NCBI RefSeq assembly: GCF_001570985.1
Contig: NZ_BCSS01000030.1
Span: forward strand, 1-41,671
Reading direction: 5' to 3'
From: Janibacter limosus NBRC 16128
GTDB taxonomy: Bacteria; Actinomycetota; Actinomycetes; Actinomycetales; Dermatophilaceae
Length of the DNA stretch: 41,671 nt
The first letter of the stretch is position 1; each line of letters opens with the position of its first letter. A model generated the notes under the pieces. It saw only the letters and a program-made list of their open reading frames with translations. It ran no database searches and had not been told where the DNA came from. Positions 9,627-29,165 of this stretch are shown here, piece after piece. A program made the translations under genes and the position numbers.

Positions 9627-11222
9627 ATGGGTGTTGCCCCCAGGGAGTCGCAGGCAGAGCTCACGCCACGAGCTGTGCGTGAGCTGGAGCTGTCCGGCTC
9701 GGACGACCCGCGCGTCGTCGACGACCAGCACCACGACGACTACGCCAACCACGTCGTCCCGATCTCGATGCGGCTCGGCAGGTGGCAGCTGGCCATGTCC
9801 TTCTGGTCGCTGCTGTCCGCGATGGTCTGGCTCTTCTACGGAGCCCTCGCCTCGAGCCTCTTCGGTAGCGCCAACGCGATCATCGCGATGGTCCTCGCCG
9901 TGGTCACCTACTCCGTCGGCAATGCGGTGATCGCCCGCTGGACGATCCGCACCGGCCTCAACGCGACCCTGCTGTCGCGCCAGACCTTCGGCATCTTCGG
10001 TGCGATCTTCGCTGCCGCGATGCTCACCGCCAACACCGTGTACTACGCCGTCTTCGAGTCGAGCACCCTGGCCGTCGCCTTCGCGCACTACACGCCGTCC
10101 TGGCGCATCGAGGTCTGGTACGCCGTCGTCGCCCTCATCATGCTGCCGCTGATGCTCGGCGGGGTGCAGACCTTCATGGCCAAGCTCAACGGCGCCCTCC
10201 TGCCCTTCTACTACGTCGGGCTCATCGCAGCGGTCGTCGTCACGGCGGTCCGCTTCCCGGTCGGCTCCGCCTGGCTGGACTTCGAGGGCATCGTCCCGCC
10301 GGAGGCGCGTGCGTACCCGGGGTGGGTCCTCGCCTTCATGCTCTACATGGGCCTGTTCATCCTCATGCCGACGACGGCGGACTTCGCCCGCTTCGGCAAG
10401 GTCGAGGACGAGAAGTTCCACACCAACGTCAGCTTCGGCTGGGTCTTCCAGACCCTGCTCTTCCTCGTCAACGGCGTCGTGGGCATCTTCCTCGTCCGCT
10501 CGGTCATCCCCAACGAGCCCGCCGCGGAGACGGGCGTGGTCACGGCTCTGCTGTCCAGCCTGGGCGTCTTCGGTCTCATCCTCATCGTCGTCTCGCAGAC
10601 CCGGATCAACACGCTCAACTACTACGAGTCCTCGGCCAATGCCTCCCGTGTCATCACCTCGCTGACCGGCCGACGGGTCCCGCGGCTGGGTCTCGTCGCG
10701 GGGCTCACCGCGGTGGTCTTCCTCCTCATGCTCACCGATGTCTTCAGCTACATCCAGCGGATGCTCGGCTGGCAGGCCGCCTTCATGGTCGGCTGGGTCG
10801 GCATCCTCCTGGCCCACTACGCGCTGTCGAAGGGGTGGAGGGCCACCGAGTTCCGCGCGCAGCGGGCCCCCCGGGTGACGTGGGGCCTGGCCGCGTGGTT
10901 GATCTCCGCCGCCGTCGCGATCTGGCTCGAGGAGTCCAGCGCGGCCCCGGCCAAGCTGGCCGCCATCGCCCCGGTCGCCGCGCTCGTCATCGCCGTCGTG
11001 CTCTACACGATCGGGTATCTCGTCATGGCCGCTCGCCGGGCCGAGCTGCCCGTGAGCGACATCCGTCTCGAGGTCGACGACGTCTGGCGCACCTACGTCC
11101 GGTGCGACGAGTGTACGAAGTCCTACGTCGCCTACGAGATGGACCGGGACGTCCACTCCGACGACCACCGACCGCTGTGCGACGCCTGCGCCATCGGCAG
11201 TCGCGCCACGAACTTCGCCTGA
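9627..11222 (+). CDS. NCS1-family permease with a C-terminal four-cysteine tail
   Basis: A 531-residue membrane transporter of the nucleobase:cation symporter-1 family, with about 12 membrane segments (for example SLLSAMVWLFYGALASSLFG and VWYAVVALIMLPLMLGGVQ). NCS1 members import purines, pyrimidines, hydantoins, allantoin, thiamine and pyridine vitamins, so an N-heterocycle is the likely cargo. The ATG at 9627 has AAGAAAGG upstream; the ATG at 9591 lies inside the operator palindrome and lacks a ribosome site. Unusually, a hydrophilic tail after the last membrane segment carries CDEC (493-496) and CDAC (518-521). This looks like a small zinc ribbon, which I do not know from this family. Confidence 0.9.
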   Translation: MGVAPRESQAELTPRAVRELELSGSDDPRVVDDQHHDDYANHVVPISMRLGRWQLAMSFWSLLSAMVWLFYGALASSLFGSANAIIAMVLAVVTYSVGNAVIARWTIRTGLNATLLSRQTFGIFGAIFAAAMLTANTVYYAVFESSTLAVAFAHYTPSWRIEVWYAVVALIMLPLMLGGVQTFMAKLNGALLPFYYVGLIAAVVVTAVRFPVGSAWLDFEGIVPPEARAYPGWVLAFMLYMGLFILMPTTADFARFGKVEDEKFHTNVSFGWVFQTLLFLVNGVVGIFLVRSVIPNEPAAETGVVTALLSSLGVFGLILIVVSQTRINTLNYYESSANASRVITSLTGRRVPRLGLVAGLTAVVFLLMLTDVFSYIQRMLGWQAAFMVGWVGILLAHYALSKGWRATEFRAQRAPRVTWGLAAWLISAAVAIWLEESSAAPAKLAAIAPVAALVIAVVLYTIGYLVMAARRAELPVSDIRLEVDDVWRTYVRCDECTKSYVAYEMDRDVHSDDHRPLCDACAIGSRATNFA

Positions 11223-11234
11223 GAGAGGACGACC

Positions 11235-12185
11235 ATGTCGACCGCAGTGGACGCTGCCCCCTTCGCCAGCCTGGCCCGCCCGGGACACATCGGCCGGCTC
11301 GAGCTGCGCAACCGCGCCGTGAAGTCGCCGCAGGCGACCGCCACGGCCAACCAGGACGGGACGGTCACCCAGCGCACCGTCGACCACTACCGGCGCCTGG
11401 GCGAAGGGGGTACCGGCCTGGTCATGGTCGAGTACACCCATGTGGACGATGACGCCTCCAAGGCGATCCACAACCAGATCGGTCTGTCCCGGCGGGAGCA
11501 CGTCGCCGGCCTGGGGTGGCTCGCTGACGTGGTGCGTTCCACCGGGGCGAAGGTGGGCATCCAGCTGGCCCACGGCGGTCGCCAGAAGTTCCTCGGCACG
11601 CGTCCGCTGAAGTCCGCCTCGACCTCCTCCTGGAGCGAGGTCGAGGCGGTCGAGGGCAATGTCCCCGTGCCGATGACGGCCGTCGAGATCCATCGGGATG
11701 CCGACCTGGACGTCGCGGCCGGGGTGACGACGAGGACGCCAGCGACGGTGCGCCCCGAGGACGTCGGGTCCTGCGTCGTCGTCGTCGGTGGCGGGTTCCA
11801 GGGGTGCGAGTGCGCCCTGCGGATCGCCCGGGAGGTGCCCAGTGCCACGGTCACCCTGGTCGAGCAGCACGAGTCACTCCAGCAGGGTGATGAGGTCTTC
11901 ACCGACCTCATGGCCCTGCCGAGGCTCCTCGCCGAGGCCGGGGTCGACGTGCGCACCGGGACCCGCGCCACAGGCGTGACGGTTGACGGCGTCTCGCTGG
12001 CCGACGGCGAGCTGCTCGAGGCCGACACCGTCGTCCTCGCGAGCGGGCGCCGGGAGGCGAGGGACCCCCTTCGCCAGGCACTGGCCGAGCGGGGGCAGCA
12101 GGTCGTCACCATCGGCTCGGCCGACCGATCGGGGCGCGTCTTCGATGCCGTCCACAGTGCCTTCTTCACGGGGAGGCAGCTGTGA
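11235..12185 (+). CDS. Old-yellow-enzyme/dienoyl-CoA-reductase-like flavoprotein with a large internal deletion
   Basis: A 316-residue protein joining two ends of a normally 640-690-residue family. Residues 1-153 match the start of the FMN barrel: NRAVKSPQATA, then QLAHGGRQ at 110-117 (the flavin-contact HxGR). They stop in the middle of the barrel, at MTAVEIH. From about residue 178 the sequence is the C-terminal dinucleotide-binding domain: VVVVGGGFQGCECA, then TLVEQHES, VVLASGRRE and the IGSADRSGRVFDA end. The second half of the barrel, the active-site Tyr/His region and the 4Fe-4S cysteines are absent. The frame is intact and the ribosome site is good. It may be an eroded enzyme or one with a new role. 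It lies between the permease and the dioxygenase genes. Confidence 0.7.
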   Translation: MSTAVDAAPFASLARPGHIGRLELRNRAVKSPQATATANQDGTVTQRTVDHYRRLGEGGTGLVMVEYTHVDDDASKAIHNQIGLSRREHVAGLGWLADVVRSTGAKVGIQLAHGGRQKFLGTRPLKSASTSSWSEVEAVEGNVPVPMTAVEIHRDADLDVAAGVTTRTPATVRPEDVGSCVVVVGGGFQGCECALRIAREVPSATVTLVEQHESLQQGDEVFTDLMALPRLLAEAGVDVRTGTRATGVTVDGVSLADGELLEADTVVLASGRREARDPLRQALAERGQQVVTIGSADRSGRVFDAVHSAFFTGRQL

Positions 12186-12232
12186 CTGCCGATGCACCCG
12201 TGACCGACCACCCACCTCGAGAGGGAGCAGAG

Positions 12233-12757
12233 ATGACCAACCGACCCTTGAGCTCGACCAGCCCGGAGCACACCGCCGCGGTCGACTTCCTCATGCTGGA
12301 GGCCGAGCTGCTCGACGACCTCGAGGAGCGTCGCTGGCTCGTCGAGATGGTCAGCCGCGACGTGATCTACCAGCTGCCGCTGCGCCAGACCGTCGAGCGC
12401 TCACGCGGCAACGGGGTCGCGCCCGGGATGTACCACCTCAACGAGGACTACGGCTCGCTGGGTTCGAAGGTCAAGCGCAACGAGACGGCCTATGCCTGGG
12501 CGGAGGACCCGCCGTCGCGGGTGCGTCACTTCGTGACGAACGTCCGCGTCCGCCACGGGGAGCGTCCCGGCGAGCTCGCCGTCCGCTCCAACATCCTCAT
12601 CTACCGCACCCGCCAGGACCAGACCACGCCGCAGCTGCTCGCCGGCGAACGGCACGACGTCCTGCGTGACGAAGGGGAGGGCCTGCGACTGCTGCGCCGC
12701 TCCGTTGTCCTCGACCTCACCGTCATCGGTACCCACAACCTCTCGATCTTCTTCTGA
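12233..12757 (+). CDS. Ring-hydroxylating dioxygenase, beta subunit
   Basis: A 174-residue small subunit of a Rieske aromatic-ring dioxygenase, with the NTF2/SnoaL-type cone fold. Family signs are VDFLMLEAELLDDLEERRWLVEMV at the N-terminus, the SRVRHFVTNVRV strand, and a C-terminal LLRRSVVLDLTVIG followed by NLSIFF. It has a structural role in the alpha3beta3 hexamer. I chose the ATG at 12233 (GAGGGAG five bases upstream). A GTG at 12182, overlapping the previous stop and preceded by GGGGAGG, is also possible and would add 17 residues. Beta comes before alpha, the reverse of the usual gene order. Confidence 0.9.
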   Translation: MTNRPLSSTSPEHTAAVDFLMLEAELLDDLEERRWLVEMVSRDVIYQLPLRQTVERSRGNGVAPGMYHLNEDYGSLGSKVKRNETAYAWAEDPPSRVRHFVTNVRVRHGERPGELAVRSNILIYRTRQDQTTPQLLAGERHDVLRDEGEGLRLLRRSVVLDLTVIGTHNLSIFF

Positions 12758-12787
12758 CCGGCGACGGACCAACGAAAGAGACATGCC

Positions 12788-14191
12788 ATGACCCAGGACG
12801 TCAACGAATCCCTCAAGGTGCGCCCACCGCTCACCGCGCGTGCGACCGAGCTCCTCGACGAGCTCGACGCCAACCTGCCCGACGGCTACATCCCGGCCTC
12901 GATCTTCGGTGACCCCGCGATCTACCAGGCCGAGCTGCGCCGCGTCTTCGGGCGCGCGTGGGTCTTCCTGGCCCACGAGTCGGAGATCGCCGCCAACGGC
13001 GACTACGTGGTCCGGGCCATCGGCGAGGACAACTTCATCGTCTCCCGCGACGAGCAGGGCGAGATCCACGTCCTCCTGGACGCCTGCCGCCACCGCGGCG
13101 TCCAGGTGTGCCGGTCCGACGCCGGCAACTCCAGCCACTTCCGGTGCCCGTACCACGGGTGGACCTACGCCTCCGACGGCAAGCTCATCGGGGCACCGCT
13201 GTGGAAGCACGCCCTCGAGGGCATGGACAAGGAGTCCAACGGTCTGCTCAAGGCTCCGAAGGTCGAGAGCTTCCTCGGGCTCGTCTTCGCCAGCCTCGAC
13301 CCGACCGCGCCGCCGCTCGAGGAGTACCTCGGCGGGATGGGCTGGTACCTGTCGCTGCTCTTCGGCCTCGACAAGGACGGCGTCGAGGTGCTCGGCCCGC
13401 CGCAGCGTTTCATCGTGCAGGCCAACTGGAAGTCGGGGGCGGACAACTTCTCCGGTGACGACTACCACCTGGGCACTCTGCACCGCTCGGTGTGGGACAT
13501 CGGGGCCTTCCCCGTGGCCTTCCAGGACAACATGATGGGCTACCACGTCCAGGCGGCGCCCGGACACTCGTTGTCCTTCTCCATGGCCGAGGACCCGGAC
13601 GAGCCGGGACCCAACTTCTTCGGTTTCCCCGACACCCTCGCCGAGCACTTCGACACGACGAACATCTCCGAGCACCAGCTCGAGATCGCGCGCCGCGCAC
13701 GGGTCTTCGTCGGCAATGTCTTCCCCAACTTCTCGGTGCTGGCGCTGCCCATGAGCGAGGACGGCGACAAGCACGCCCCCACGGGCATCCTCACCATGCG
13801 CACCTGGCAGCCCAAGGGCCCGGGCGAGATCGAGATCTGGAACTGGTTCCTCGCGTACAAGAACCTCAGCGACGAGCAGAAGGAGCGCACGTACAAGGCG
13901 GGCCTCGGGACCTTCTCCGTCGGCGGCTCCTTCGAGATGGACGACACCGAGCCGTGGATCACCGTGGGCCGCACCGGTCGGTCCGTCGCCGCGGAGCTGA
14001 TGCACATGCAGCTCAACTACAAGATGGGCATGCCCGGTGTCGGCATCGCCCGCGAGGTCGACGACTGGCCCGGGCCCGGCAAGGCCTACTGGTCGCGTTA
14101 CGAGGAGGGCGTCCAGCGCAACCTCTACCGCTACTACTCCGCGCTCATGCGCGCCGGTGACGGCGAGTGGCCCGTCACCTCGCTGGAGTGA
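12788..14191 (+). CDS. Ring-hydroxylating dioxygenase, alpha (catalytic) subunit
   Basis: A 467-residue Rieske non-heme iron oxygenase large subunit. The Rieske [2Fe-2S] site is C100-x-H102 and C120-x2-H123. The mononuclear iron site is D224-x2-H227-x4-H232 in NFSGDDYHLGTLH, with the third ligand probably D385 or D386 in SFEMDDTEPW. All ligands are present, so it should be active. It resembles the actinobacterial polycyclic-arene/naphthalene dioxygenase branch more than phthalate-type monomeric oxygenases. It adds O2 across an aromatic bond to give a cis-dihydrodiol. Electrons probably come from the ferredoxin (16133) and the NuoF-like protein (14832), as no classical reductase gene is present. 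The substrate is unknown. Confidence 0.93.
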   Translation: MTQDVNESLKVRPPLTARATELLDELDANLPDGYIPASIFGDPAIYQAELRRVFGRAWVFLAHESEIAANGDYVVRAIGEDNFIVSRDEQGEIHVLLDACRHRGVQVCRSDAGNSSHFRCPYHGWTYASDGKLIGAPLWKHALEGMDKESNGLLKAPKVESFLGLVFASLDPTAPPLEEYLGGMGWYLSLLFGLDKDGVEVLGPPQRFIVQANWKSGADNFSGDDYHLGTLHRSVWDIGAFPVAFQDNMMGYHVQAAPGHSLSFSMAEDPDEPGPNFFGFPDTLAEHFDTTNISEHQLEIARRARVFVGNVFPNFSVLALPMSEDGDKHAPTGILTMRTWQPKGPGEIEIWNWFLAYKNLSDEQKERTYKAGLGTFSVGGSFEMDDTEPWITVGRTGRSVAAELMHMQLNYKMGMPGVGIAREVDDWPGPGKAYWSRYEEGVQRNLYRYYSALMRAGDGEWPVTSLE

Positions 14192-14196
14192 GCGCC

Positions 14197-14835
14197 GTGA
14201 CGACCTCCACCGACCGCGACGCGGTCCTCACCCGGTACGCCGAAGGGGGCCTGGCCGGCGCCCTGTCGCCGGGTCACCGACCCGCCCTGCTCGTCGTCGA
14301 CCTGCAACGGGGCTTCACCGACCCGGCCTGCGGCCCCGGCTTCGAGATGCCGACCGTCGTCACCGAGACGGCCCGGCTCGTGGCAGCCGCCCATGCGGCC
14401 GACGTGCCGGTCCTCTTCACGACGATCGCCTTCGCCTCGGACGACGAGCCGGTGTGGTTGACGAAGATGCCCGCGATGCTCGAGCTGCGGGACGGTTCCC
14501 CCTGGGTCGACATCGACCCGGCCGCCGGGATCGCCGACGGAGACCACGTCGTCGTCAAACAGGCGGCCTCGGCCTTCAGCGGGACCGACCTGGCGAGCCG
14601 GCTGGAGGAGGCCGGCGTCGACACGGTCGTCGTCTGCGGCGCCACGACCTCCGGGTGCGTGCGCGCCACCGCGGTCGACGCGATCTCCGTGGGGCTGCGG
14701 CCCTTCGTCGTCGCCTCCGCCGTCGGCGACCGTGAGCAGTCGCCCCACGACGCCGCGCTGATCGACATCCAGGCCAAGTACGGAGAGGTCGTCCCCATCG
14801 AGACGGCCCTGTCCATCATCGAGGAGCACCGATGA
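14197..14835 (+). CDS. nicF: Isochorismatase-fold amidohydrolase, probably maleamate amidase
   Basis: A 212-residue cysteine hydrolase with a complete catalytic triad: D35 (VVDLQRGF), K121 (VVVKQAASAF) and C154 (TTSGCVRATAVDA). The ASAF stretch after the lysine and the SGCVRATAVDA nucleophile region match Pseudomonas NicF as I remember it. NicF converts maleamate to maleate and ammonia. The presence of NicX-like and maleate isomerase genes in the same block supports this over N-carbamoylsarcosine or nicotinamide amidase. The GTG at 14197 has GGAG eight bases upstream. An earlier GTG at 14188, overlapping the dioxygenase stop, would put that site too close. It overlaps the next gene by an ATGA. 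Confidence 0.8.
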   Translation: MTTSTDRDAVLTRYAEGGLAGALSPGHRPALLVVDLQRGFTDPACGPGFEMPTVVTETARLVAAAHAADVPVLFTTIAFASDDEPVWLTKMPAMLELRDGSPWVDIDPAAGIADGDHVVVKQAASAFSGTDLASRLEEAGVDTVVVCGATTSGCVRATAVDAISVGLRPFVVASAVGDREQSPHDAALIDIQAKYGEVVPIETALSIIEEHR

Positions 14836-16136
14836 CCACCTTCCCCTTGCTGCGTCGGGTCCCCGATCGTCTGCCGACCGCTCGCGTCGCGCCCTGCATG
14901 GAGCCGCGCCTCGTGCGCACCCGACCTGACGGCGCACCGCTCGGGCTGGCCGGCGAGCAGGAGGCGGGGTACCTGCAGGAGACACCGACGCCCGCGTCAG
15001 CCGCCGGACTCATCGACGAGCTGACCCGTGCCCGGGTCCAGGGCCGCGGCGGGGCCGGCTTCCCGGCCCACGTCAAGTGGCGCTCGGTCGCCGCGGCCGA
15101 CGGGCGGCGTGTCGTCGTGGCCAACGGCCACGAGGGCGAGCCGGCGTCCGGCAAGGACCGTTGGCTGCTGCTCCACCGTCCCCACCTCGTCCTGGAGGGA
15201 CTGCTGCTGGCAGGCGCCGCCCTTGGAGCCGACCGGACCATCGTCTGCGTCAGCCGTCCGGACACACGCGCCTCCGTCGAGGCGGCCATCGGTGACCTCG
15301 CGGCGGCGGGACTGGTGCAGGAGTCGGTGGACATCGAGGTCGTCTCGCTCGACCACCGGTACGTCACGGGGGAGGAGAGCGCCCTCGTGCAAGGCATCAA
15401 CGGCAAGCAGCCGCTGCCGACCTTCAAGCCTCCCCGGCCCTTCGAGGAGGGCGTCGGCGGCCAGCCGACCCTCATCCAGAACGTCGAGACGCTGGCCCAC
15501 GTCGCCTGGATCCACCGCCACGGAGCGGAGGCCTTCGCCCAGCTCGGCACCCGGACCTCGCCCGGCAGCGCGCTCTTCACGATCATGGGCGGACCGGAGG
15601 ACTGCGCGATCATCGAGGCGCCGCTCGGCATCGAGATCCACGAGCTGCTGTCCTTCGTCGGCGTGCAGCCCGAGGCCGTCTCGCGCCTCTTCCTCGGCGG
15701 GTGGTTCGGAGGCGTGCACGCCTCGGAGGTCCTCGGCCTCGAGTGCGACTACACGACCCTGCGTCTCGCCGGGAGCGGACTCGGCTGCGCCTCGCTCACC
15801 GTCATCGGTCCCGACGAGGACGTCGCCGGCATCGTTGCCGAGCTCGGTGCCTGGTATGCCTCCGAGAGCGCCCAGCAGTGCGGGGTCTGCCGCAACGGCA
15901 CCCGAGCCATCGGCAAGGCGCTCGGCAAGAACGCGGAGGGACTCGCCGACGACGAGGACCTGGCCAACCTCTCCCGGTGGGGCGTGGACCTGCCCGGCCG
16001 CGGGGCCTGCGCCTTCCTCGACGGGGCGGCGACCCTGGCCCGCACCACCGTCTCGGTCATTAGCGCCAAGGAGTTCGTGGGCGCCCGAGCACGCGCTGGG
16101 AACGGCGCCACCACCACCCTCGAGGAGCAGTCATGA
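14832..16136 (+). CDS. NuoF-like FMN/NADH flavoprotein, probable dioxygenase reductase
   Basis: A 434-residue homologue of complex I subunit NuoF. It has the FMN/NADH site (GRGGAGFP at 71-78, K82, then NGHEGEP), the SLBB-type middle domain and the PTLIQNVETLAHV motif. In the C-terminal cluster region NuoF has ESCGxCxxCREG; here it reads ESAQQCGVCRNG. The first cysteine is therefore replaced (A347), while C350, C353 and C393 (GACAFLDG) remain. No other nuo gene is near. Wedged between the dioxygenase, amidase and ferredoxin genes, with overlaps on both sides, it most likely takes electrons from NADH and hands them to the ferredoxin. A hydrogenase- or formate-dehydrogenase-type diaphorase role has no partner here. 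Confidence 0.85.
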   Translation: MTTFPLLRRVPDRLPTARVAPCMEPRLVRTRPDGAPLGLAGEQEAGYLQETPTPASAAGLIDELTRARVQGRGGAGFPAHVKWRSVAAADGRRVVVANGHEGEPASGKDRWLLLHRPHLVLEGLLLAGAALGADRTIVCVSRPDTRASVEAAIGDLAAAGLVQESVDIEVVSLDHRYVTGEESALVQGINGKQPLPTFKPPRPFEEGVGGQPTLIQNVETLAHVAWIHRHGAEAFAQLGTRTSPGSALFTIMGGPEDCAIIEAPLGIEIHELLSFVGVQPEAVSRLFLGGWFGGVHASEVLGLECDYTTLRLAGSGLGCASLTVIGPDEDVAGIVAELGAWYASESAQQCGVCRNGTRAIGKALGKNAEGLADDEDLANLSRWGVDLPGRGACAFLDGAATLARTTVSVISAKEFVGARARAGNGATTTLEEQS

Positions 16137-16327
16137 AGGCACGCATCGACGCGATCAGGTGTCAGGGCTACGGGACCTGCGTGGACCGGTGCCCGGAGCT
16201 CTTCGAGCTCGACGAGTGGGGATTCGCCGCCGTCATCGGCGATGGCGACGTCCCCGAGGCGCTCGAGGAGGCAGCGCGCTCGGCGCAGCGAGCCTGCCCC
16301 GAGGACGCCGTCCATCTCGGCTTCTGA
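16133..16327 (+). CDS. Single-cluster ferredoxin ([3Fe-4S] type)
   Basis: A 64-residue acidic ferredoxin. The motif is C10-x5-C16-x3-C20-P with C55-P near the end. Tyr13 stands where the second cysteine of a [4Fe-4S] motif would be, so a [3Fe-4S] cluster held by C10, C16 and C55 is likely. Actinobacterial ferredoxins of this type serve P450s and Rieske oxygenases. Its start overlaps the NuoF-like stop (ATGA), so the two are translationally coupled. It probably carries electrons from that flavoprotein to the dioxygenase alpha subunit. Confidence 0.92.
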   Translation: MKARIDAIRCQGYGTCVDRCPELFELDEWGFAAVIGDGDVPEALEEAARSAQRACPEDAVHLGF

Positions 16328-16335
16328 AACCCACC

Positions 16336-16352
16336 TGCACTTCACTCGTGCA
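16336..16352 (+). promoter_or_regulatory. Short hairpin between ferredoxin and ABC permease genes
   Basis: TGCAC-N7-GTGCA lies 8 bases after the ferredoxin stop and 23 bases before the permease start. With five base pairs it is a weak structure. It could reduce read-through into the transporter genes, and it marks the 5' edge of the segment with different codon use. Confidence 0.25.
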
Positions 16353-16375
16353 CCTCGAACAGACAAGGACTCATC

Positions 16376-17431: not shown

Positions 17432-17455
17432 CCTTCATACTCGTAGGAGAACCCC

Positions 17456-20118: not shown

Positions 20119-20143
20119 TGTTCCGAGTGATGAGATGACGACG

Positions 20144-20177
20144 TGCAAAAATGTATGCAAACATGTATGCATAGTAT
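20144..20177. promoter_or_regulatory. Candidate GntR operator O2: 12-base tandem repeat, with a possible -10
   Basis: Two copies of TGCAAA(A/C)ATGTA (20144-20155 and 20156-20167) are followed by a partial third copy starting TGCA. Inside, TGTATGCAAA (20152-20161) is identical to the core of O1 at 9588-9597, and TGTATGCA recurs at 20164-20171. TAGTAT (20172-20177) fits a -10 element for a second promoter; no clear -35 is seen. The element is directly upstream of the SDR that opens the second half of the block. Confidence 0.55.
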
Positions 20178-20211
20178 GTCGGTTATTCAGCGAACAAGAA
20201 CAAGGAAGCAC

Positions 20212-20985: not shown

Positions 20986-21010
20986 TCCGCACCCGAAAGG
21001 AAGCATTCAC

Positions 21011-22015: not shown

Positions 22016-22016
22016 C

Positions 22017-23114
22017 ATGTCCGATGGTTCCCTCGAGGGCGCCATCCTCGCGATGGCCCGCGACCGAGACCTGCTCGAGCGGGTCCGCCAGGACCCGGCG
22101 GCCGGTGCCACCGAGCTCGGGATCACGCAGGAGTGGGTCGAGGTCATCGTCTCCGGCGATCGCGACCGGCTCCGCTCGGCCGGGGTCAACGACGGCATCA
22201 CGATCCTCGTCAGCCGCTGGTTCCGGGACGACATCGGTGACAGCGCGAGCGAGGGCCGCCTGCACGTGGACACGACGACGCCGCTGCCGCCGAAGGACCT
22301 GCCCGAGGGCCTGGTCTTCGCCGGCGGGGCATCGCACGTCCCCGACCTGCTGGCCCGTCCCGAGATCGACCCCGAGGAGGGGGTGCAGCGACTCCTCGCC
22401 GGGTACGAGCGGATGGCGGCGGACTTGCGGGCCGCCGACCCCGACGTCATCCTCGTGACGGCCGACTGCCACTTCCAGAGCTTCGAGACGCAGCACTACG
22501 TCGTCGGCACGGCCGCGACGCACGGCGGCTCGATGGAGTTCTTCAAGCGTCCCGACCTCGACCTCGAGCTCACCGGCAGCCCGCAGATGGCCGAGCACAT
22601 CGCGACGGCCGTGCGCGCGGCGGGCCTGGAGGTGGAGGAGGCGTCCCGCGTCGACCTCGATCACGGGCTGATCGTCCCCCTTCGCCTCATGCTGCCTCGG
22701 CCCGACGTCCCGGTCGTGCCGATCATCACCCAGCCGCACCGCAGCTTCTCGCCGTTCGGGGCCAGGGCCTTCGGTGCCGCGATGCGGGCCGCGGTCGAGC
22801 GCTCCGGGCTGCGCGTGGCGATGCTCGCCACAGGGGGCCTGAGCCACTGGCTCGACCCGGGCAAGTTCGGCGGCGTGGACGTCGAGTTCGACACCTACCT
22901 GCTCGAGATGCTCCGGGCAGGGCGGGGCAACGACATCGCCAACCTCGAGCCGTACCCCCTGCTCGACCACGGGCAGTACGAGTTCCCGAACTGGCTGATC
23001 ATGCTCGGGCTCGTCGGGCCGGGTGTCCGCGGTGAGGTCTACACCTACGAGCCCATGGAGGCATCCGGTGGCGGCTGGACCGTCGTGCGGATGCAGATCG
23101 AGGAGGAGTCATGA
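22017..23114 (+). CDS. LigAB-type (class III) extradiol ring-cleavage dioxygenase
   Basis: A 365-residue fusion of a small LigA-like N-terminal domain (about 1-75, LEGAILAMARDRDLLERVRQ) with a LigB catalytic domain (about 98-350). Likely Fe(II) ligands are H107 (ASHVPD), H152 (TADCHFQSF) and E290 (VEFDTYLL). H216 in DLDHGLIVPL matches the catalytic base of LigB. Family members cleave protocatechuate, gallate derivatives and related diols next to a hydroxyl. The gene starts one base after the NicX-like stop and overlaps the nitrilase gene (ATGA). A role on a dihydroxylated or trihydroxylated heterocycle is inferred only from context. Confidence 0.88.
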   Translation: MSDGSLEGAILAMARDRDLLERVRQDPAAGATELGITQEWVEVIVSGDRDRLRSAGVNDGITILVSRWFRDDIGDSASEGRLHVDTTTPLPPKDLPEGLVFAGGASHVPDLLARPEIDPEEGVQRLLAGYERMAADLRAADPDVILVTADCHFQSFETQHYVVGTAATHGGSMEFFKRPDLDLELTGSPQMAEHIATAVRAAGLEVEEASRVDLDHGLIVPLRLMLPRPDVPVVPIITQPHRSFSPFGARAFGAAMRAAVERSGLRVAMLATGGLSHWLDPGKFGGVDVEFDTYLLEMLRAGRGNDIANLEPYPLLDHGQYEFPNWLIMLGLVGPGVRGEVYTYEPMEASGGGWTVVRMQIEEES

Positions 23115-23983
23115 CGGACACGAGGAGCCTACGGGTCGGTCTGACCCAGTGGCACGCGACGCGGGATGTCGCGGCGAACGTCGAGCTGGCCCTGCGGGCC
23201 GTCCGCGACTGCGCGGCCGCGGGAGCGCAGCTGGTCGTCCTCCCGGAGAACGGACTGATGCTCGGCAGCAACACCGAGATGAGGGAGGCGGCCTTCAGCG
23301 AAGGGGGCGACCCTCACCTCGACCGCATCGCCGAGGCGGCGCGTGACAAGGACGTCGTGGTCGTCGTCGGTGGACTGAAGAACCGCACCGACGGCGGAAC
23401 CTTCAACTCCGCCCTCGTCTACGACCGGTCGGGACACCTGGCCGGGCGTTACGACAAGATCCACCTCTTCGATGCACGCATCGGCGGTCAGTCCTTCGAG
23501 GCGAGCTCGGTCGAGCAACGTGGCACGCACCCGGTAATCGTCGACGTCGACGGTGTCGCCGTCGGTCTGACGATCTGCTACGACGTCCGCTTCCCCGAGC
23601 TCTACCGCACCCTCGCGCTGGGCGGGGCCGAGGTGATCCTCGTGCCCGCTGCCTTCACCCGCATCACGGGCGACGCCCACTGGGAGGTCCTGCTGCGGTC
23701 CCGGGCCATCGAGTCCGGGGCCTACGTCCTCGCCAGTGCCACCGTCCACGGCGACGGCGAGACGCCCGACGCCTTCGAGACCTACGGGCACGCCCTCGCG
23801 GTGGGCCCCTGGGGCGAGGTCCTCGCCGACCTCGGGGAGGCGACCTTCGCCACGAAGGTCCTCGACCTCGACCTCGACCAGGTGGACGCGGTGCGTGACC
23901 GGCTGCCGGCCCTGCGCGGCGTGCAGCCGGAGACATACGGTGCACAGATCCGACGAGTCACGACCTCAGGAGCGATGACATGA
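23111..23983 (+). CDS. Nitrilase-superfamily amidohydrolase (Nit2/omega-amidase-like)
   Basis: A 290-residue carbon-nitrogen hydrolase with a complete Glu-Lys-Cys triad: E46 (VLPENGL), K116 (RYDKIHLF) and C156 (TICYDVRFPELYR). The YDVRFPELYR stretch is typical of the Nit/omega-amidase branch, which hydrolyses amides such as alpha-ketoglutaramate rather than nitriles. Two roles suit the context. One is hydrolysis of an alpha-ketoglutaramate-like product after extradiol cleavage of a hydroxypyridine. The other is a deamidation or deformylation step after the NicX-like enzyme, since no NicD-type alpha/beta hydrolase is present. The gene overlaps both neighbours by ATGA. Confidence 0.9.
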   Translation: MTDTRSLRVGLTQWHATRDVAANVELALRAVRDCAAAGAQLVVLPENGLMLGSNTEMREAAFSEGGDPHLDRIAEAARDKDVVVVVGGLKNRTDGGTFNSALVYDRSGHLAGRYDKIHLFDARIGGQSFEASSVEQRGTHPVIVDVDGVAVGLTICYDVRFPELYRTLALGGAEVILVPAAFTRITGDAHWEVLLRSRAIESGAYVLASATVHGDGETPDAFETYGHALAVGPWGEVLADLGEATFATKVLDLDLDQVDAVRDRLPALRGVQPETYGAQIRRVTTSGAMT

Positions 23984-24297
23984 GCGAGCACAAGATCCAC
24001 CCCGACCTCGGGGACGCCCAGCCGGGCCCGGACGCCAAGGACGAGCCGGACCCCGTGCCGGGTGTCGTGAGCGCCGAGGAGTGGCAGGGCATCGGCAACG
24101 AGTTCACCGGTGTCCACTTCCGCAAGGTGCGCACCAAGAACGGCGAACGCCTACAGCTCTTCGTCCCGCGACGAGGTCACAGCGTCGTCCTCGACCCGAT
24201 GCAGCTGGAGATCGTCGCTGCGCAGGACCCGACCTTCTTCAGCCGCCTGCATGCCCGCGAGCTGGGTGCCGGGTCCGAGGAGCCGACGGATGCCTGA
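23980..24297 (+). CDS. Small conserved-type protein of unknown function
   Basis: A 105-residue protein with an acidic, disordered-looking N-terminus (about 1-35). A compact domain follows: GNEFTGVHFRKVRTKNGERL, then SVVLDPMQLEIVAAQDPTFF. The pattern of a strand pair with a KNGERL turn recalls small actinobacterial proteins often labelled dihydrodiol dehydrogenase in arene-degradation clusters. That label has no visible catalytic basis here, as there is no dinucleotide-binding motif. It overlaps the nitrilase stop (ATGA), and its end overlaps the GntR start. It may be an accessory or assembly factor of the dioxygenase system; this is inference from position. Confidence 0.7.
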   Translation: MSEHKIHPDLGDAQPGPDAKDEPDPVPGVVSAEEWQGIGNEFTGVHFRKVRTKNGERLQLFVPRRGHSVVLDPMQLEIVAAQDPTFFSRLHARELGAGSEEPTDA

Positions 24298-25117
24298 CCA
24301 CGCCGTCGGCAGCGGTGAACGACGCTCGGGGAACGTCGTCGAGGCGGTCGCCGATGCGCTGCGCGAGCAGATCGTCTCGGGGGCACTCGCCCCCGGTCTG
24401 CGTCTCAGCCAGGCGGACGTGGCGCGCGAGCTCGATGTCTCACGCACGCCGTTGCGGGAGGCGCTGCACAAACTCGAGGCGGAGGGTCTCGTCGTCACCC
24501 AGGCCAACCGCGGAATGTCCGTGGCCCCGGCGCCCCTCCACCAGGTCGAGGACGCCTACTGCCTGCGCCTGATGACCGAGCCACCCATGGTGCGGGCCAT
24601 CGTCTCGACCATCGAGGACGACGCGCTCGACGCCATGCGCGAGCGGCTCGAGGCCATGGAGCGCGACCACACGAGCACGCGTGACTTCCAGGACGCGCAC
24701 TTCGCCTTCCACGAGATCATCACCGGGAAGTACCCGAAGGCCGTCTCACGGCTGGTCGACGCACAGATGATGCTCATCCAGCGCCACCAGCGGCTCTATT
24801 TCGCCCGCCCGCGGGCCCTGTCCAACTTCACCGACGTCGACCGCGCCTTCCTCGAGGCGGTCGGGACTCGCGAGGGCGCGGCGGCAGCCCGGATGATGGA
24901 GTTCCATCTCCTCGACGCCGCGATCGGCATGATCCGCGAGGTCGACCCGGACTACGTCCTCGATCCGCTGCTCGTCACCTGTGACGCCCTCGACATCGTC
25001 CTCGACGAGCGCGCCGACGGACGCCTCGACGTCCTGTGGCGCCACGACTACTACGACATCGGTCTCACCGAGACCGTCAACCTCGTCCCTCTCAAGGCAC
25101 CCCGGCAGACCCGGTGA
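24290..25117 (+). CDS. GntR-family regulator with FCD ligand-binding domain
   Basis: A 275-residue transcription factor. The N-terminal winged helix is at about 15-80, with recognition helix QADVARELDVSRTPLREAL. An all-helical FCD domain fills the rest. FCD sites usually bind a metal and a carboxylate; D135 and H141 (DAHFAFHEII) and H206 (MEFHLLDA) are probable ligands. The ATG at 24290 overlaps the previous stop and gives a normal GntR length; the longer open frame upstream is in the wrong frame for the preceding gene. It most likely controls the catabolic block through the TGTATGCAAA elements at 9.59 and 20.15 kb, released by a pathway acid such as maleate. Confidence 0.9.
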   Translation: MPDHAVGSGERRSGNVVEAVADALREQIVSGALAPGLRLSQADVARELDVSRTPLREALHKLEAEGLVVTQANRGMSVAPAPLHQVEDAYCLRLMTEPPMVRAIVSTIEDDALDAMRERLEAMERDHTSTRDFQDAHFAFHEIITGKYPKAVSRLVDAQMMLIQRHQRLYFARPRALSNFTDVDRAFLEAVGTREGAAAARMMEFHLLDAAIGMIREVDPDYVLDPLLVTCDALDIVLDERADGRLDVLWRHDYYDIGLTETVNLVPLKAPRQTR

Positions 25118-25148
25118 GCCCGTGACCCCCTTCGACAGGAGCCCACCC

Positions 25149-25922
25149 ATGCACACCCCCATCCGCGTCGGCCTCATCGTGCCGAGCAGCAACGTGACGA
25201 TGGAGACCGAGATCCCGGCCATGCTGCGCGCTCGGGAGCAGGTCGCGCCAGAGCGCTTCACCTTCCACTCCGCGCGCATGCGGATGAAGCAGGTGACGCC
25301 GGAGGAGCTGGCCGCGATGGACGCGGACTCCGAGCGAGCCGCCGCCGAGCTGGCCGACGCCCGGGTCGACGTCATGGGGTATGCCTGCCTCGTCGCGATC
25401 ATGTCCCAGGGCCACGGGTACCACAGGACCTCCGAGGAGCGTCTGGGTCGCGTGGCGCGCGAAGAGACCGGTGGCGACCTGCCGATCGTGTCCTCGGCCG
25501 GTGCGCTCGTCGAGGCGCTGGAGCACCTGGGCGCCCGCAGGGTCGCGGTCCTGACCCCCTACATGGAGCCACTCACCGCCACCGTGTGCAGCTACATCGA
25601 GAACGAGGACATCGAGGTCGTCGACTCCATCAGCAGGGAGGAGCCCGACAACCTCAAGGTCGGTCAGCTCGACCAGGACGAGCTCATCCGGCTTGCGGGT
25701 GAGGTGGACACCACCGGCGCGGACGCGCTCGTCATCAGCGCGTGCGTGCAGATGCCCTCCCTCAGGGCGCTCGCCGAGGTGCAGCGGCGCTCGCCGATCC
25801 CCGTCGTCAGCGCCGCGTCGGCCACCGTGTGGAAGATGCTGCGCGAGCTCGACCTCGACCCGGTGGTGCCCGAGGCCGGCGCGCTCCTGGGGCAGCCCCT
25901 CGCTCAGGCGGTCTCCCGATGA
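25149..25922 (+). CDS. maiA: Maleate cis-trans isomerase
   Basis: A 257-residue member of the Asp/Glu racemase superfamily that converts maleate to fumarate. It is very close to P. putida NicE as I remember it: GLIVPSSNVTMETEIPAML, RFTFHSARMRMKQV, MGYACLVAIM and VISACVQMPSL. Both catalytic cysteines are present (C80 and C199), as is N15 of the SSN loop. This is one of the clearest indicators of the maleamate pathway in the window, because it feeds the ring carbons into the citric acid cycle. The ATG at 25149 starts 32 bases after the regulator gene. Its stop overlaps the VOC gene. Confidence 0.93.
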   Translation: MHTPIRVGLIVPSSNVTMETEIPAMLRAREQVAPERFTFHSARMRMKQVTPEELAAMDADSERAAAELADARVDVMGYACLVAIMSQGHGYHRTSEERLGRVAREETGGDLPIVSSAGALVEALEHLGARRVAVLTPYMEPLTATVCSYIENEDIEVVDSISREEPDNLKVGQLDQDELIRLAGEVDTTGADALVISACVQMPSLRALAEVQRRSPIPVVSAASATVWKMLRELDLDPVVPEAGALLGQPLAQAVSR

Positions 25923-26755
25923 AGGTGCACGGGCTGGCCTGGCTCGGGTCGAGCAGTCCTGCCCTCGAGGAGATGACGGCCTTCATCCGCGACGGGCTCG
26001 GCCTCGAGGTGCAGCAGGAGCAGGAGGGCGCCCGGGTCTTCGGGTTCCCCGACGGCAGTGCCTTCGAGATCTTCAAGCCGAGCGACGACGCGCACGACTT
26101 CTTCGAGCACCCGGTCGCCGGCTTCCTCGTCGACGACGTGGCGGAGGTGCGGGCCCATCTGGAGTCCCGGGGCGTGGAGTTCGTCGGGGAGATCCACGAG
26201 GGGGTCGAGGACTCGTGGTCGCCGCGCTGGACCCACTTCCGCGGGCCGGACGGTTACCTCTACGGGCTGGTCACCAGCTGGCCGGAGCAGCGGGTCTCGC
26301 GTGACCGCGGCTTCGACGAGCTGCGCTTCTGCCTGCGCGTCGACGACTTCGACACCGCACTGGCCCAGTACCGCGACGGGCTCGGGATGCAGGTCGTCGA
26401 CGAGTGGACCCACCCCGACGGGCAGCGGGGTGCGCTCTTCGGCGTCGTGCCCGCGGCCCTGGAGATCTTCGACGGGCCCCAGGCAGACCTCGTCGACGCC
26501 GTCGAGGCGGGGGAGCCGCTCGGGCGTGACCACGGGTTGCGCGTCGAGGTCGCCGACCTGCCCGCCCTCGAACGACTGGCCGGTGTCCTCGAGGCATCGG
26601 GGGCCACCCGCCACGCCACGGGCGTCGTCGAGACACCGTGGGAGCAGACCTGCCAGCGGATGGACCTGCCGGACGGTGAGCAGCTGACCATCTCCATCCT
26701 GCCCGCAAGCGAACGCGCCGAGCGGACCATCGCCCGAGCGCGGATCAACCTATGA
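25919..26755 (+). CDS. Two-domain VOC protein (glyoxalase/type I extradiol fold)
   Basis: A 278-residue protein made of two vicinal-oxygen-chelate modules. The first (about 1-125) has VHGLAWLG, SAFEIFKPS, HPVAGFLVDDV and PDGYLYGL. The second (about 138-265) has LRFCLRVDDFDTALAQYRDG, AALEIFDG, GLRVEVADL and PDGEQLTI. Type I extradiol dioxygenases and glyoxalases share this layout, but the metal-binding His/His/Glu set is not clearly complete. It could be a hydrolytic, epimerase-type or binding member. It overlaps maleate isomerase by ATGA upstream, so it is probably part of the pathway. Its step cannot be named. Confidence 0.75.
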   Translation: MKVHGLAWLGSSSPALEEMTAFIRDGLGLEVQQEQEGARVFGFPDGSAFEIFKPSDDAHDFFEHPVAGFLVDDVAEVRAHLESRGVEFVGEIHEGVEDSWSPRWTHFRGPDGYLYGLVTSWPEQRVSRDRGFDELRFCLRVDDFDTALAQYRDGLGMQVVDEWTHPDGQRGALFGVVPAALEIFDGPQADLVDAVEAGEPLGRDHGLRVEVADLPALERLAGVLEASGATRHATGVVETPWEQTCQRMDLPDGEQLTISILPASERAERTIARARINL

Positions 26756-26769
26756 CCCAGGAGACACCC

Positions 26770-27579
26770 ATGAGCACATCCACCGGTCGCCTCGACGGCA
26801 AGGTCGTCGTCTTCACCGGAGCCGGCGGAGGCATCGGCCTGTCCGCCGTGCGCCGCTTCGTCGCCGAGGGGGCGCGGATCGTCGCCGTCGACATCTCCGA
26901 CCGGGTGGAGCAGGCGACTGCCGACCTGGGGGATGCCGTCATCCCTGTCGTCGCCGACGTGTCGACCTGGGAGGGCAACCGGGCGGCCGTCGAGGCGGCT
27001 GTCGCGGCCTGGGGTCGGTTGGACCTCTTCGTCGGCAACGCCGGGATCACCGATGCAGCCCGTCCGCTCGAGGAGATCCCCGGTGAGGACCTCACGCAGG
27101 CCTTCCACGAGCTCTTCGACGTCAACGTCCTCGCCCTCATGCTGGGAGCGCGTGCGGCACTGCCAGAGCTCATCAGCAGCAGGGGGTCGATCATCCTCAC
27201 CGGCTCCTTCGCCAGCTCCCACGCGGCCGGAGGAGGCGCGCTCTACACGGCGTCCAAGCACGCGGTCCTCGGGCTCGTGCGCCAGCTGGCCTACGAGCTC
27301 GCGCCCGACGTCCGGGTCAACGGCATCGCCCCCGGAGTGGCCCCGACCCGGCTCAAGGGGCTCTCCGCCCTGGGGCAGGAGGCGACGGACTCGGTCCTCG
27401 ACGGGACGGCGGCGATCCTGCCCCTGCAGCGGGTGCCCGAGCTGAGCGACTTCGACGGGGCCTTCGTCATGCTCGCCTCCGACGACGCGGCGATCATGAC
27501 CGGCGCGATGATCAGCGTCGACAGCGGGCTGTCCGTGCGCGGCCTGAACCGCCCCGGTGGCCGCGTCGGGGTGCGATGA
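26770..27579 (+). CDS. SDR, cis-dihydrodiol dehydrogenase-like (BphB/NarB type)
   Basis: A 269-residue NAD-dependent dehydrogenase. TGAGGGIG is the dinucleotide site, D41 after the second strand favours NAD, and N119, S146, Y159 and K163 complete the catalytic set. FVGNAGI, GGGALYTASKHAVLGLVRQL and ELAPDVRVNGIAPG match biphenyl and naphthalene dihydrodiol dehydrogenases rather than FabG. Such enzymes re-aromatise the cis-dihydrodiol made by a Rieske dioxygenase, so this is a natural partner of the enzyme at 12.2-14.2 kb. The ATG at 26770 has CAGGAGA five bases upstream; an ATG at 26752 overlapping the previous stop would add six residues. Confidence 0.88.
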   Translation: MSTSTGRLDGKVVVFTGAGGGIGLSAVRRFVAEGARIVAVDISDRVEQATADLGDAVIPVVADVSTWEGNRAAVEAAVAAWGRLDLFVGNAGITDAARPLEEIPGEDLTQAFHELFDVNVLALMLGARAALPELISSRGSIILTGSFASSHAAGGGALYTASKHAVLGLVRQLAYELAPDVRVNGIAPGVAPTRLKGLSALGQEATDSVLDGTAAILPLQRVPELSDFDGAFVMLASDDAAIMTGAMISVDSGLSVRGLNRPGGRVGVR

Positions 27580-28307
27580 CGCCCCGGCCCACCCGGGTGG
27601 CCCTGGTCACCGGTGCGCGGCGGGGCATCGGCGCCGCGACGGTGACGGCTCTCGCCGAGGCCGGGCTGCAGGTCGTCGCTGCCGTCCGGTCACCGACGTC
27701 GACGCCGGGAGCCGACCTGACGATCACGGGGGACGTCACCGATGCCGGAGACGTCCACCGGATGCTCGCAGAGGTGGCCGACCGGCTCGGACCGGTCGAC
27801 GTCCTCGTCAACAACGCTGGCGGTTTCCTGCGGCCGGGGACCACGCTCGACACCACGAAGGAGGAGTGGGAGCAACAGCTCGCGCTCAACCTCACCGCCC
27901 CCTTCGTCATGACGCAGGCGGTGCTGCCCGGGATGATCGCCCGCGGGTGGGGCCGCATCGTGACGATCGGTTCGGTCGTCGCGCGCGCACCTGCGCTCGG
28001 CAACGCCACTGCATACGTCGCAGCCAAGGCCGGGGTCGTGGGATGGACGCGGCAGCTGGCGCTGGAGACGGCTGGGACCGGGGTGACGGCCAATGTCGTC
28101 AACCCCGGCACGACCCGCACGGAGCACCTCGACGACTACCTGCGCGACAGCGACCGGGCGGGAGCAGACCTTGCCGCGTCCATCCCGATGGGACGACTCG
28201 GCGACCCTGCCGAGGTCGCGGCTGCCGTGCGGTACCTCGTGGGGGAGGACGCCGGCTTCACCACCGGCATCTCGATCGACGTCAACGGTGGCGTCGCGAT
28301 GAGCTGA
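27576..28307 (+). CDS. SDR, FabG-like dehydrogenase
   Basis: A 243-residue classical SDR with VTGARRGIG (11-19), LVNNAGG (77-83), N105, S133, Y147 and K151, all catalytic positions present. The ending GFTTGISIDVNGG is the usual C-terminal signature. It is closer to FabG and secondary-alcohol dehydrogenases than to the BphB-like members on each side. No Asp follows the second strand, and the VAAVRS sequence suggests NADP use. Its ATG overlaps the previous stop. It may oxidise a ring-opened or hydroxylated intermediate; the substrate cannot be told from sequence. Confidence 0.87.
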   Translation: MTPRPTRVALVTGARRGIGAATVTALAEAGLQVVAAVRSPTSTPGADLTITGDVTDAGDVHRMLAEVADRLGPVDVLVNNAGGFLRPGTTLDTTKEEWEQQLALNLTAPFVMTQAVLPGMIARGWGRIVTIGSVVARAPALGNATAYVAAKAGVVGWTRQLALETAGTGVTANVVNPGTTRTEHLDDYLRDSDRAGADLAASIPMGRLGDPAEVAAAVRYLVGEDAGFTTGISIDVNGGVAMS

Positions 28308-28326
28308 CCCGGGCACGGTGCCCGGG
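28308..28326. terminator. Palindrome between two SDR genes
   Basis: CCCGGGCAC-G-GTGCCCGGG has perfect 9-base arms and begins one base after the upstream stop codon. As RNA it folds into a 7-base-pair GC stem with a 5-base loop. With no T-tract it is more likely an attenuator or mRNA-stability element than a full terminator. Operator use is also possible. Confidence 0.45.
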
Positions 28327-28343
28327 CACGAAAGGACAGACTG

Positions 28344-29165
28344 ATGTTTTCCATGGACGGCAAGATCGCCCTCGTGACTGGCGGCGCCGGTGGTATCGGC
28401 GAGGCCGTGGTTCGCGCCTACGTCGAGGCAGGCGCCCGCGTGGGCATCCTCGACCGGGACGCGGAGAGGCTGGATGCCGTGGCCCGCGACCTCGGGGACG
28501 CGGTCGTCGGGGTCCACGGGAGCGTGGAGCGGATGGCGGACAACGTGCGCGCCGTGCAGACGACGGTCGACGCCTTCGGTGGCCTGACCACCTTCGTCGG
28601 CAACGCCGGTGTGGGTGCCGGCAACCTCACACTCGCCCAGATGCCGGTGGACAAGCTCGAGGAGGCCATCGACGAGATCTTTGCGATCAACGTGCGCGGC
28701 TACCTCTTGGGTGCTCGGGCCGCGCTGCCCGAAGTGCTGCGCGCCCACGGGTCGATGATCTTCTCGACCTCCATCGCCGGCTACCGGGCCGTCGACGATG
28801 GCGTGCTGTACGTGGCGAGCAAGCACGCTGACGTAGGCATCGTGCGGCAACTGGCGTGGGAGTTTGCCCCTCGGGTCCGCGTCAACGGTGTGGCGATCGG
28901 AGTGGCCCGGACCAACATGGAAGGTCTGCAGTGCCTCGACCAGCCAACCGTCGACGCGGTCCTGCCGGGGGCAGAGCAGGTCATACCCCTGGAGGTGATC
29001 CCCGAGGCGTCCGACCATGCGGGCGCTTTCGTCTACCTCGCGTCAGACCGGGCGTCGGTCGCGACGGGCGAGTGCATCTGGACCGACAGCGGTTTCGGGA
29101 TCCGGGGTATCGGATCACCGCGCGGAGGCGCGGAGCTCGACCCGGATGCCCTCGACGTCACCTGA
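28344..29165 (+). CDS. SDR, second cis-dihydrodiol dehydrogenase-like enzyme
   Basis: A 273-residue SDR with TGGAGGIG (12-19), D37 and D39 in ILDRD (NAD preference), FVGNAGV, N116, S143, Y156 and K160. DEIFAINVRGYLLGARAALP and VLYVASKHADVGIVRQLAWEFAPRVRVNG place it with the dihydrodiol dehydrogenases, a paralogue of the gene at 26770 but clearly diverged. AAAGGA precedes the ATG by seven bases. It is the last gene of the run. Its stop lies two bases from that of the convergent flavin reductase gene. Two such enzymes suggest two dihydrodiols, or one with a shifted specificity. Confidence 0.88.
   Translation: MFSMDGKIALVTGGAGGIGEAVVRAYVEAGARVGILDRDAERLDAVARDLGDAVVGVHGSVERMADNVRAVQTTVDAFGGLTTFVGNAGVGAGNLTLAQMPVDKLEEAIDEIFAINVRGYLLGARAALPEVLRAHGSMIFSTSIAGYRAVDDGVLYVASKHADVGIVRQLAWEFAPRVRVNGVAIGVARTNMEGLQCLDQPTVDAVLPGAEQVIPLEVIPEASDHAGAFVYLASDRASVATGECIWTDSGFGIRGIGSPRGGAELDPDALDVT

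Follow-up and report, generated by a model that had tools for sequence, protein, structure and literature searches.

Two adjoining ring-opening dioxygenases in an inserted gene island of Janibacter limosus: a candidate system for aerobic breakdown of 2-hydroxyquinoline or a bicyclic relative

The 41,671-nucleotide stretch of DNA analyzed here (the window) makes up an entire contig of the Janibacter limosus NBRC 16128 genome. It contains a gene island that we propose to serve the aerobic degradation of 2-hydroxyquinoline (2-quinolone) or of a bicyclic compound closely related to it (probability about 0.6). The gene content of the island, its conserved gene order, the catalytic residues of its enzymes, its insertion and the quinoline-related context of a homologous cluster in Rhodococcus pyridinivorans YF3 were observed. 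An earlier interpretation made from the letters alone (the sequence-only reading) had described a co-directional run encoding Rieske oxygenase alpha and beta subunits, a NuoF-like flavoprotein, a ferredoxin, short-chain dehydrogenases/reductases (SDRs), NicX-, amidase- and isomerase-like enzymes and a GntR/FCD regulator, and searches with hidden Markov models (HMMs) and against the PDB confirmed this inventory. Absent from its list were a LigB-type extradiol dioxygenase, a CN_hydrolase (nitrilase-superfamily) amidase, a small Rieske-associated protein, an ABC transporter, a VOC-family protein and the remnant of an OYE-type flavoenzyme. The overlooked LigB and nitrilase-superfamily amidase changed the earlier picture: a block for N-heterocycle catabolism that begins with a Rieske oxygenase and ends in maleamate-type steps remained supported by homology and conserved catalytic residues, but a simple pyridine seemed an improbable substrate in view of LigB and the YF3 context.

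Two unrelated ring-opening dioxygenases, a NicX-clade enzyme (21011..22015, + strand, as are all island genes; E 1.3e-67 to NicX, PDB 7cn3) and the LigB-type, class III extradiol dioxygenase (22017..23114; PF02900), adjoined each other in 32/32 related loci. These comprised 31 distinct loci from one scan with a LigB alignment and the plasmid of R. pyridinivorans YF3; LigB being the query, its own presence in 32/32 loci is by construction. Relatives of LigB open catechols. NicX, according to the accessible part of its published description, cleaves 2,5-dihydroxypyridine between C5 and C6. Since a single pyridine ring needs only one ring-opening dioxygenase, the presence of two suggests a two-ring substrate. 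As judged from the sequences, simple pyridines are probably not the substrate class, and a bicyclic compound such as 2-hydroxyquinoline fits better.

Locus content was scored by tblastn, with identity limits set by gene and at least half of the query covered. SDR1, NicX and the CN-hydrolase accompanied LigB in 32/32 loci, across Actinomycetota and Pseudomonadota. The GntR regulator was present in 30/32 loci, and the isomerase and the small protein in 29/32. The alpha and beta subunits, the amidase, the NuoF-like protein and the ferredoxin were each present in 28/32, the OYE-type enzyme in 20/32, SDR2 in 19/32, the permease in 12/32, molybdenum hydroxylase subunits in 7/32 and the VOC protein in 5/32. 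Hosts included Nocardia, Rhodococcus, Gordonia, Streptomyces, Amycolatopsis, Pseudonocardia, Actinomadura, Thermomonospora, Acidimicrobiaceae, a Sphingomonadales bacterium and Pusillimonas. Alpha was missing from four loci, three of which (L007, L017 and L023) are cut by contig ends. Apart from an antisense open reading frame (ORF), no further gene family common to at least four loci was found among ORFs of at least 110 amino acids with a GC3 above 0.7, ORFs overlapping known matches having been dropped; an aldolase, aldehyde dehydrogenase or decarboxylase was thus rejected as a conserved neighbor. The module is widespread but rare. Strong LigB matches (100, 93, and 89%) occurred in 3/16 genomes of the genus, and matches at E 1e-100 or better in 2/394 genomes of the class, one of them the window's own.

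The inserted island measures 19,675 bp (9493..29167), its genes running from the permease start at 9627 to an SDR end at 29165. It is a discrete insertion with a clean junction, missing in two congeners (G011 and G009), in which window base 9492 is joined directly to base 29168. When Fpg-like and ClpC proteins were searched in 16 genomes of the genus, their genes were spaced by 0.5–3.2 kb in 13/16, by approximately 21 and 22 kb in the window genome and in J. terrae NBRC 107853 (G015), and lay on different contigs in Candidatus Janibacter merdipullorum (G010). G014 carried approximately 470 other bases at the island site. The left flank holds lysS, Ku and the Fpg-like gene, and the right flank a DUF4328 gene, clpC, disA, and radA. 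A repeat search inside the island yielded short, chance-like families and nothing more. Comparison of gene order, which the sequence-only reading had called for, showed that the core order recurs in other loci; this recurrence and the discrete insertion indicate that the gene grouping is not due to chance. Horizontal acquisition of the island belongs to the favored explanation as a whole and is considered likely to the same degree.

Conservation of catalytic residues was counted in stop-free sequences within set limits of identity and length, those of the window among them (26 alpha, 29 amidase, 29 isomerase, 24 NuoF-like, 31 SDR1, 19 SDR2, 32 LigB, 32 CN-hydrolase, and 33 NicX sequences). NicX residues were mapped on the 7cn3 alignment and then checked in a multiple alignment. 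The iron ligands H265, H318, and D320 were kept in 33/33 sequences and S302 in 32/33, the exception being L030, a locus with split frames in several genes. In the substrate-contact set (L104, H105, E177, and H189), H105 and H189 were kept, while L104I and E177Q were found in 33/33, as were V175T and E308F. E177 of NicX is named as a substrate contact in the available text of the structural report. The NicX of the Azospirillum nic cluster keeps L104, V175, E177, and E308. With both L104 and E177 changed in all members, the window protein is treated as a homolog rather than as NicX proper, and the pattern suggests altered specificity. C76, opposite which mostly E or Q stood in pairwise mapping, was dropped as a diagnostic position, since it lies in a gap of the multiple alignment.

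In LigB, the metal-site and catalytic residues H107, H152, and H277 were present in 32/32 sequences and E290 in 30/32. A structural model built from 21 of the 33 LigB sequences (mean pLDDT 85.7) matched class III 2-aminophenol, gallate and protocatechuate dioxygenases and included a helical N-terminal extension. Fold, as modeled, and residues are those of a class III extradiol dioxygenase, here the putative opener of the benzo ring.

The candidate 2-hydroxyquinoline 5,6-dioxygenase consists of a beta subunit (12182..12757; PF00866, E 3.5e-35) and an alpha subunit (12788..14191), the latter assigned from Pfam, PDB, tree and residue evidence. The 2Cys-2His Rieske site, the 2His-1Asp iron site and the bridging Asp of alpha were kept in 26/26 sequences; which Asp belongs to the iron site and which is bridging is our assumption. 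By these features, the pair has the sequence hallmarks of a Rieske ring-hydroxylating dioxygenase. The nearest solved relative of alpha was naphthalene dioxygenase 2b1x. In a tree of 16 of the 26 cluster sequences and 10 references, among which the program flagged long branches, the cluster sequences formed one clade with 100/100 support, apart from the naphthalene- and phthalate-type references used. The sequence-only reading had held that its proposal would fail if alpha fell among proven carbocyclic-only dioxygenases and the strain responded to no N-heterocycle; alpha did not fall there, although no member of its clade has a proven substrate.

Electrons from NADH may reach the oxygenase through the NuoF-like flavoprotein (14832..16136; HMM, PDB and residue evidence), a proposed NADH-ferredoxin reductase, and the 64-amino-acid ferredoxin (16133..16327). 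The NuoF-like gene was not present in the two proteobacterial loci (L028 and L034). The first Cys of the customary CxxCxxC motif is missing from the protein; C319, C350, C353, and C393 were invariant in 24/24 sequences, a pattern hinting at a changed cluster ligand. Plasmid pR1CP1 of R. opacus 1CP (L063) carries a NuoF-like gene (39% identity) near a Rieske alpha gene, a cytosine permease gene and tpdB, so the pairing of NuoF and Rieske proteins is not unique to the module; L063 is perhaps another NuoF-linked N-heterocycle oxygenase locus. ORF 23980..24297 was rejected as the ferredoxin, a role that belongs to 16133..16327. It resembles small ORFs behind the Rieske beta genes of naphthalene- and phthalate-type clusters (42% over 59 and 44% over 63 amino acids in two other clusters) and is listed as a small Rieske-associated protein. 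Among the SDRs, SDR1 (about 20215..20985) had LSxxxR in place of YxxxK in 31/31 sequences and hence lacks the signature of a classical SDR. The BphB/HcaB-type SDR2 (26752..27579; HMM) kept YxxxK in 19/19, which makes it the better candidate for a dihydrodiol dehydrogenase.

Enzymes of the lower pathway retained their catalytic residues. The D-K-C triad of the isochorismatase-fold amidase (about 14203..14835; Pfam, PDB) was found in 29/29 sequences, both cysteines of the maleate isomerase homolog (25146..25922) in 29/29 and the E-K-C residues of the CN-hydrolase (23111..23983; Pfam, PDB) in 32/32. The isomerase matched the solved maleate cis-trans isomerase 4fq7 (E 7e-86) and was 59% identical to that of the Azospirillum nic cluster; the amidase, a candidate maleamate amidase, was 42% identical to the Azospirillum NicF-like protein. 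The sequence-only reading had seen no molybdenum hydroxylase, NicC or NicD genes, and none was found by Pfam scans of the window's called genes for the first or by Azospirillum NicC and NicD queries of the window for the other two; among 33 sources, the latter queries gave one marginal NicD match, in L011. Where the island module has the CN-hydrolase, the Azospirillum nic cluster has an alpha/beta hydrolase. Cleavage of a 6-substituted ring by NicX would yield N-acylmaleamate rather than N-formylmaleamate, which would explain a CN-hydrolase instead of NicD. The lack of NicD in the window and of an additional shared gene family indicates that NicX probably meets a side chain.

A link to quinoline was provided by strain YF3, whose plasmid carries the same gene order as the window core. 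As far as the accessible part of its description goes, this strain came from a quinoline bioreactor, breaks down quinoline by way of 2-hydroxyquinoline, at which degradation stops when oxygen is scarce, as would follow if the next enzymes were oxygenases. A three-subunit molybdenum hydroxylase was found near the cluster in 7/32 loci, including that of YF3, and is placed after the cluster in J. terrae. Its large subunit in YF3 was closest in the PDB to quinoline 2-oxidoreductase (Qor) 1t3q (467 bits), followed by a CoxL-type protein (425 bits). Ring cleavage in the 5,6-dihydroxy-2-quinolone route yields a 2-pyridone that carries a hydroxyl group at C5 and a carboxy-oxopropenyl side chain at C6. 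Such a 6-substituted 2,5-dihydroxypyridine could be accepted by a modified NicX. The available portion of a cited source names the 5,6-dihydroxy-2-quinolinone pathway as one of two common quinoline routes.

In the proposed route, for which we infer every substrate and product, the Rieske oxygenase would use NADH electrons, delivered via the NuoF-like protein and ferredoxin, to convert 2-hydroxyquinoline to its 5,6-cis-dihydrodiol, and a BphB-type dehydrogenase (SDR2 or SDR4) would oxidize the dihydrodiol to 5,6-dihydroxy-2-quinolone. LigB would then open the benzo ring, leaving a 2,5-dihydroxypyridine that bears a carboxy-oxopropenyl side chain on C6, and the NicX-clade enzyme would cleave the remaining ring between C5 and C6 to N-acylmaleamate. 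From this intermediate, the CN-hydrolase, replacing the NicD deformylase, would free maleamate, which the isochorismatase-type amidase would hydrolyze to maleate for conversion to fumarate by the isomerase. With maleamate and maleate as products, the heterocycle would have to be unsubstituted at C3 and C4. An ene-reductase would be required for 2-oxoglutaconate, the remaining C5 fragment, which the OYE of relatives could reduce to 2-oxoglutarate, the nine carbons being accounted for as four plus five. An OYE-type enzyme had both ends at a spacing that fits full length in 19/32 loci; a full-length protein (645 amino acids; L032 2872-4809) was translated for L032 only. In J. terrae (L004 2849-3973), the permease start and the OYE end are all that is left.

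Several observations weigh against this assignment. In L032, from a metagenome-assembled genome of Candidatus Janibacter merdipullorum (G010), alpha, beta, the NuoF-like protein, ferredoxin and the small protein are missing inside an otherwise continuous cluster; alpha was not found in that genome (90% complete), an empty search that alone is not proof, and the front-end genes were lost, or never gained, as a set. SDR1 occurs in 32/32 loci, yet it lacks YxxxK and has no place in the proposed steps, and SDR2 is within reach in 19/32 loci only. The best PDB match of the amidase was N-carbamoylsarcosine amidohydrolase, and genes so named also occur in phthalate-type Rieske clusters, which makes the predicted maleamate role of the amidase less secure than that of the isomerase. 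Nearest solved relatives of the CN-hydrolase were Nit/NIT2 proteins, which lends no support to N-acylmaleamate as its substrate. The window's OYE gene (11235..12185; Pfam) has lost about 330 residues in frame relative to the homolog in L032. A NicX homolog of Embleya sp. NBC_00888 (L061; 42% identity) also has I104 and Q177, and LigB was not found in the 13 kb covered there, which tells against a special meaning of these two changes. The genome of the window strain holds five MoCoBD_1 genes, with at best 36% identity to the YF3 large subunit; lacking a close Qor-type large subunit, the strain may start from 2-hydroxyquinoline rather than quinoline. The quinoline phenotype of YF3 could rest on genes outside the cluster, and a related Rhodococcus was assigned other quinoline routes, via 8-hydroxycoumarin and anthranilate, in the parts of the literature available. 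As a separate observation, the Embleya homolog lies near a molybdenum hydroxylase and is possibly a monocyclic relative of the clade.

Three other explanations were weighed against breakdown of 2-hydroxyquinoline or a close relative. The Rieske oxygenase and an SDR might make a di- or trihydroxypyridine from 2-hydroxypyridine or another pyridine, which NicX would open and the lower enzymes convert to fumarate, LigB catalyzing a side reaction. The NicX-, NicF- and isomerase-like enzymes do form the known 2,5-dihydroxypyridine route, and a 2-hydroxypyridine pathway exists in Rhodococcus, as the accessible part of its description states. However, LigB, albeit the query, stands beside NicX in every locus with its metal-site residues kept and is hard to see as a side activity; with NicD missing, the NicX contact residues changed and YF3 coming from a quinoline context, such a monocyclic substrate is considered unlikely. 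With the same architecture, the island might serve another bicyclic or larger N-heteroaromatic compound (an alkaloid, a 2-quinolone carrying substituents, or a fused pyridone whose C3 and C4 are free), 2-hydroxyquinoline being only an accidental substrate. The wide distribution of the module, which extends to Streptomyces, Nocardia and others, the restriction of a nearby Qor-like hydroxylase to 7/32 loci and the variation of transporters between loci speak for such a compound. The origin of YF3 and its growth through 2-hydroxyquinoline, as given in the available description, speak against it, and it is considered unlikely. Finally, the island might be dormant, its pathway lost by gene decay in this strain and the remainder neutral. 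The internal deletion in OYE, an ABC transporter inserted into the operon and the lack of a close Qor-type hydroxylase in the genome would fit decay. Since the core enzymes are encoded by open frames with intact catalytic residues and the NicX-like protein is 95% identical to its J. terrae counterpart, dormancy appears very improbable.

The proposed breakdown of 2-hydroxyquinoline was compared with known systems. The 5,6-dihydroxy-2-quinolone route of quinoline degradation is known as metabolites and purified enzymes. Its ring dihydroxylase, dihydrodiol dehydrogenase and extradiol dioxygenase types are present in the island, and a Qor-like hydroxylase stands beside the cluster in 7/32 loci, though outside the window; the NicX-clade cleavage of the second ring and the CN-hydrolase step are what the present proposal adds. 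A 2-oxo-1,2-dihydroquinoline 5,6-dioxygenase was reported for Comamonas testosteroni 63, according to the accessible part of the report. With the nicotinate (nic) lower pathway of NicX, NicD, NicF and maleate isomerase, the island shares NicX-, NicF- and isomerase-like enzymes whose catalytic residues are retained. It differs in having LigB, the CN-hydrolase and the Rieske oxygenase in addition, and a plain nicotinate cluster was rejected on account of the missing NicD and NicC in the window and the changed NicX contacts. The hpo pathway for 2-hydroxypyridine of Rhodococcus rhodochrous PY11, with which the sequence-only reading had drawn a comparison, reportedly uses a multi-component Rieske oxygenase and, like the island, involves an amidase. 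The comparison proved weak: in the part of the hpo description available, the lower route proceeds via HpoH and a 2-ketoglutaramate amidase, with no maleamate branch, and an hpo-type pathway was therefore rejected. HpoH is a polyketide-cyclase-like ring-opening enzyme; no cyclase-type Pfam match was obtained among the island's called proteins, the HpoH sequence itself not being a query. Actinobacterial nar and pad/pht Rieske clusters share the alpha/beta pair and the same small protein, and nar-type and pRHL2 clusters a BphB-type dehydrogenase, whereas the pad/pht clusters examined have an FAD-dependent reductase in place of the NuoF-like protein and the island alpha forms a clade of its own. 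Among the matches listed from the open-licence literature, which misses most subscription papers, no report of a gene set for this quinoline route was recognized. While the first-step chemistry is known, both the NicX step on a ring bearing a side chain and the CN-hydrolase step stand a fair chance of being new.

The remaining island genes encode transporters, a regulator and a few further proteins. A putative permease for possible substrate uptake (9627..11222) stands where the sequence-only reading had placed an NCS1 permease; the gene is present, but its likeness to cytosine permeases was weak (NCBIfam, 34 bits versus a cut-off of 326) and a Pfam scan gave no match. Its C-terminal tail (11100-11195) contains two Cys-x-x-Cys pairs, apparently an uncommon feature in a transporter of this kind. 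The ribose-type ABC transporter (permease, binding protein and ATPase; 16376..20118; HMM) lies in a region (16328-20200) with a GC content of 61.4%, compared with 70.3% elsewhere in the island. This GC content and the lack of a close match (0/32 loci) indicate that it was probably inserted later within the operon, and it was rejected as a core part; weaker ATPase matches (28–37%) were found in L008, L013, L026, L027, and L034. The GntR/FCD regulator (about 24299..25117; Pfam) has an uncertain start codon. The annotation of YF3 splits the corresponding gene (L003 27686-28551) into two overlapping parts, with a further GntR gene immediately downstream on the opposite strand. A VOC-family protein (25919..26755; Pfam), the FabG-like SDR3 (27576..28307; HMM) and SDR4 (28344..29165; HMM), the second BphB/HcaB-type SDR, complete the island.

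It is possible, at somewhat less than even odds, that the island represents a first set of genes for the complete aerobic degradation of 2-hydroxyquinoline with both rings opened, combining a NuoF-driven 5,6-dioxygenase, LigB for the benzo ring, a NicX subclass for a 2,5-dihydroxypyridine that bears a side chain and a nitrilase-family amidase that replaces NicD, and yielding fumarate and a C5 keto acid without loss of carbon. If so, it would provide candidate genes for the 2-oxo-1,2-dihydroquinoline 5,6-dioxygenase reported in 1995 and for the subsequent steps, and the order of the two ring openings would become directly testable with a few purified enzymes. The operon would also serve as a marker for quinoline breakdown in wastewater and soil, and the NicX family would be extended beyond plain 2,5-dihydroxypyridine.

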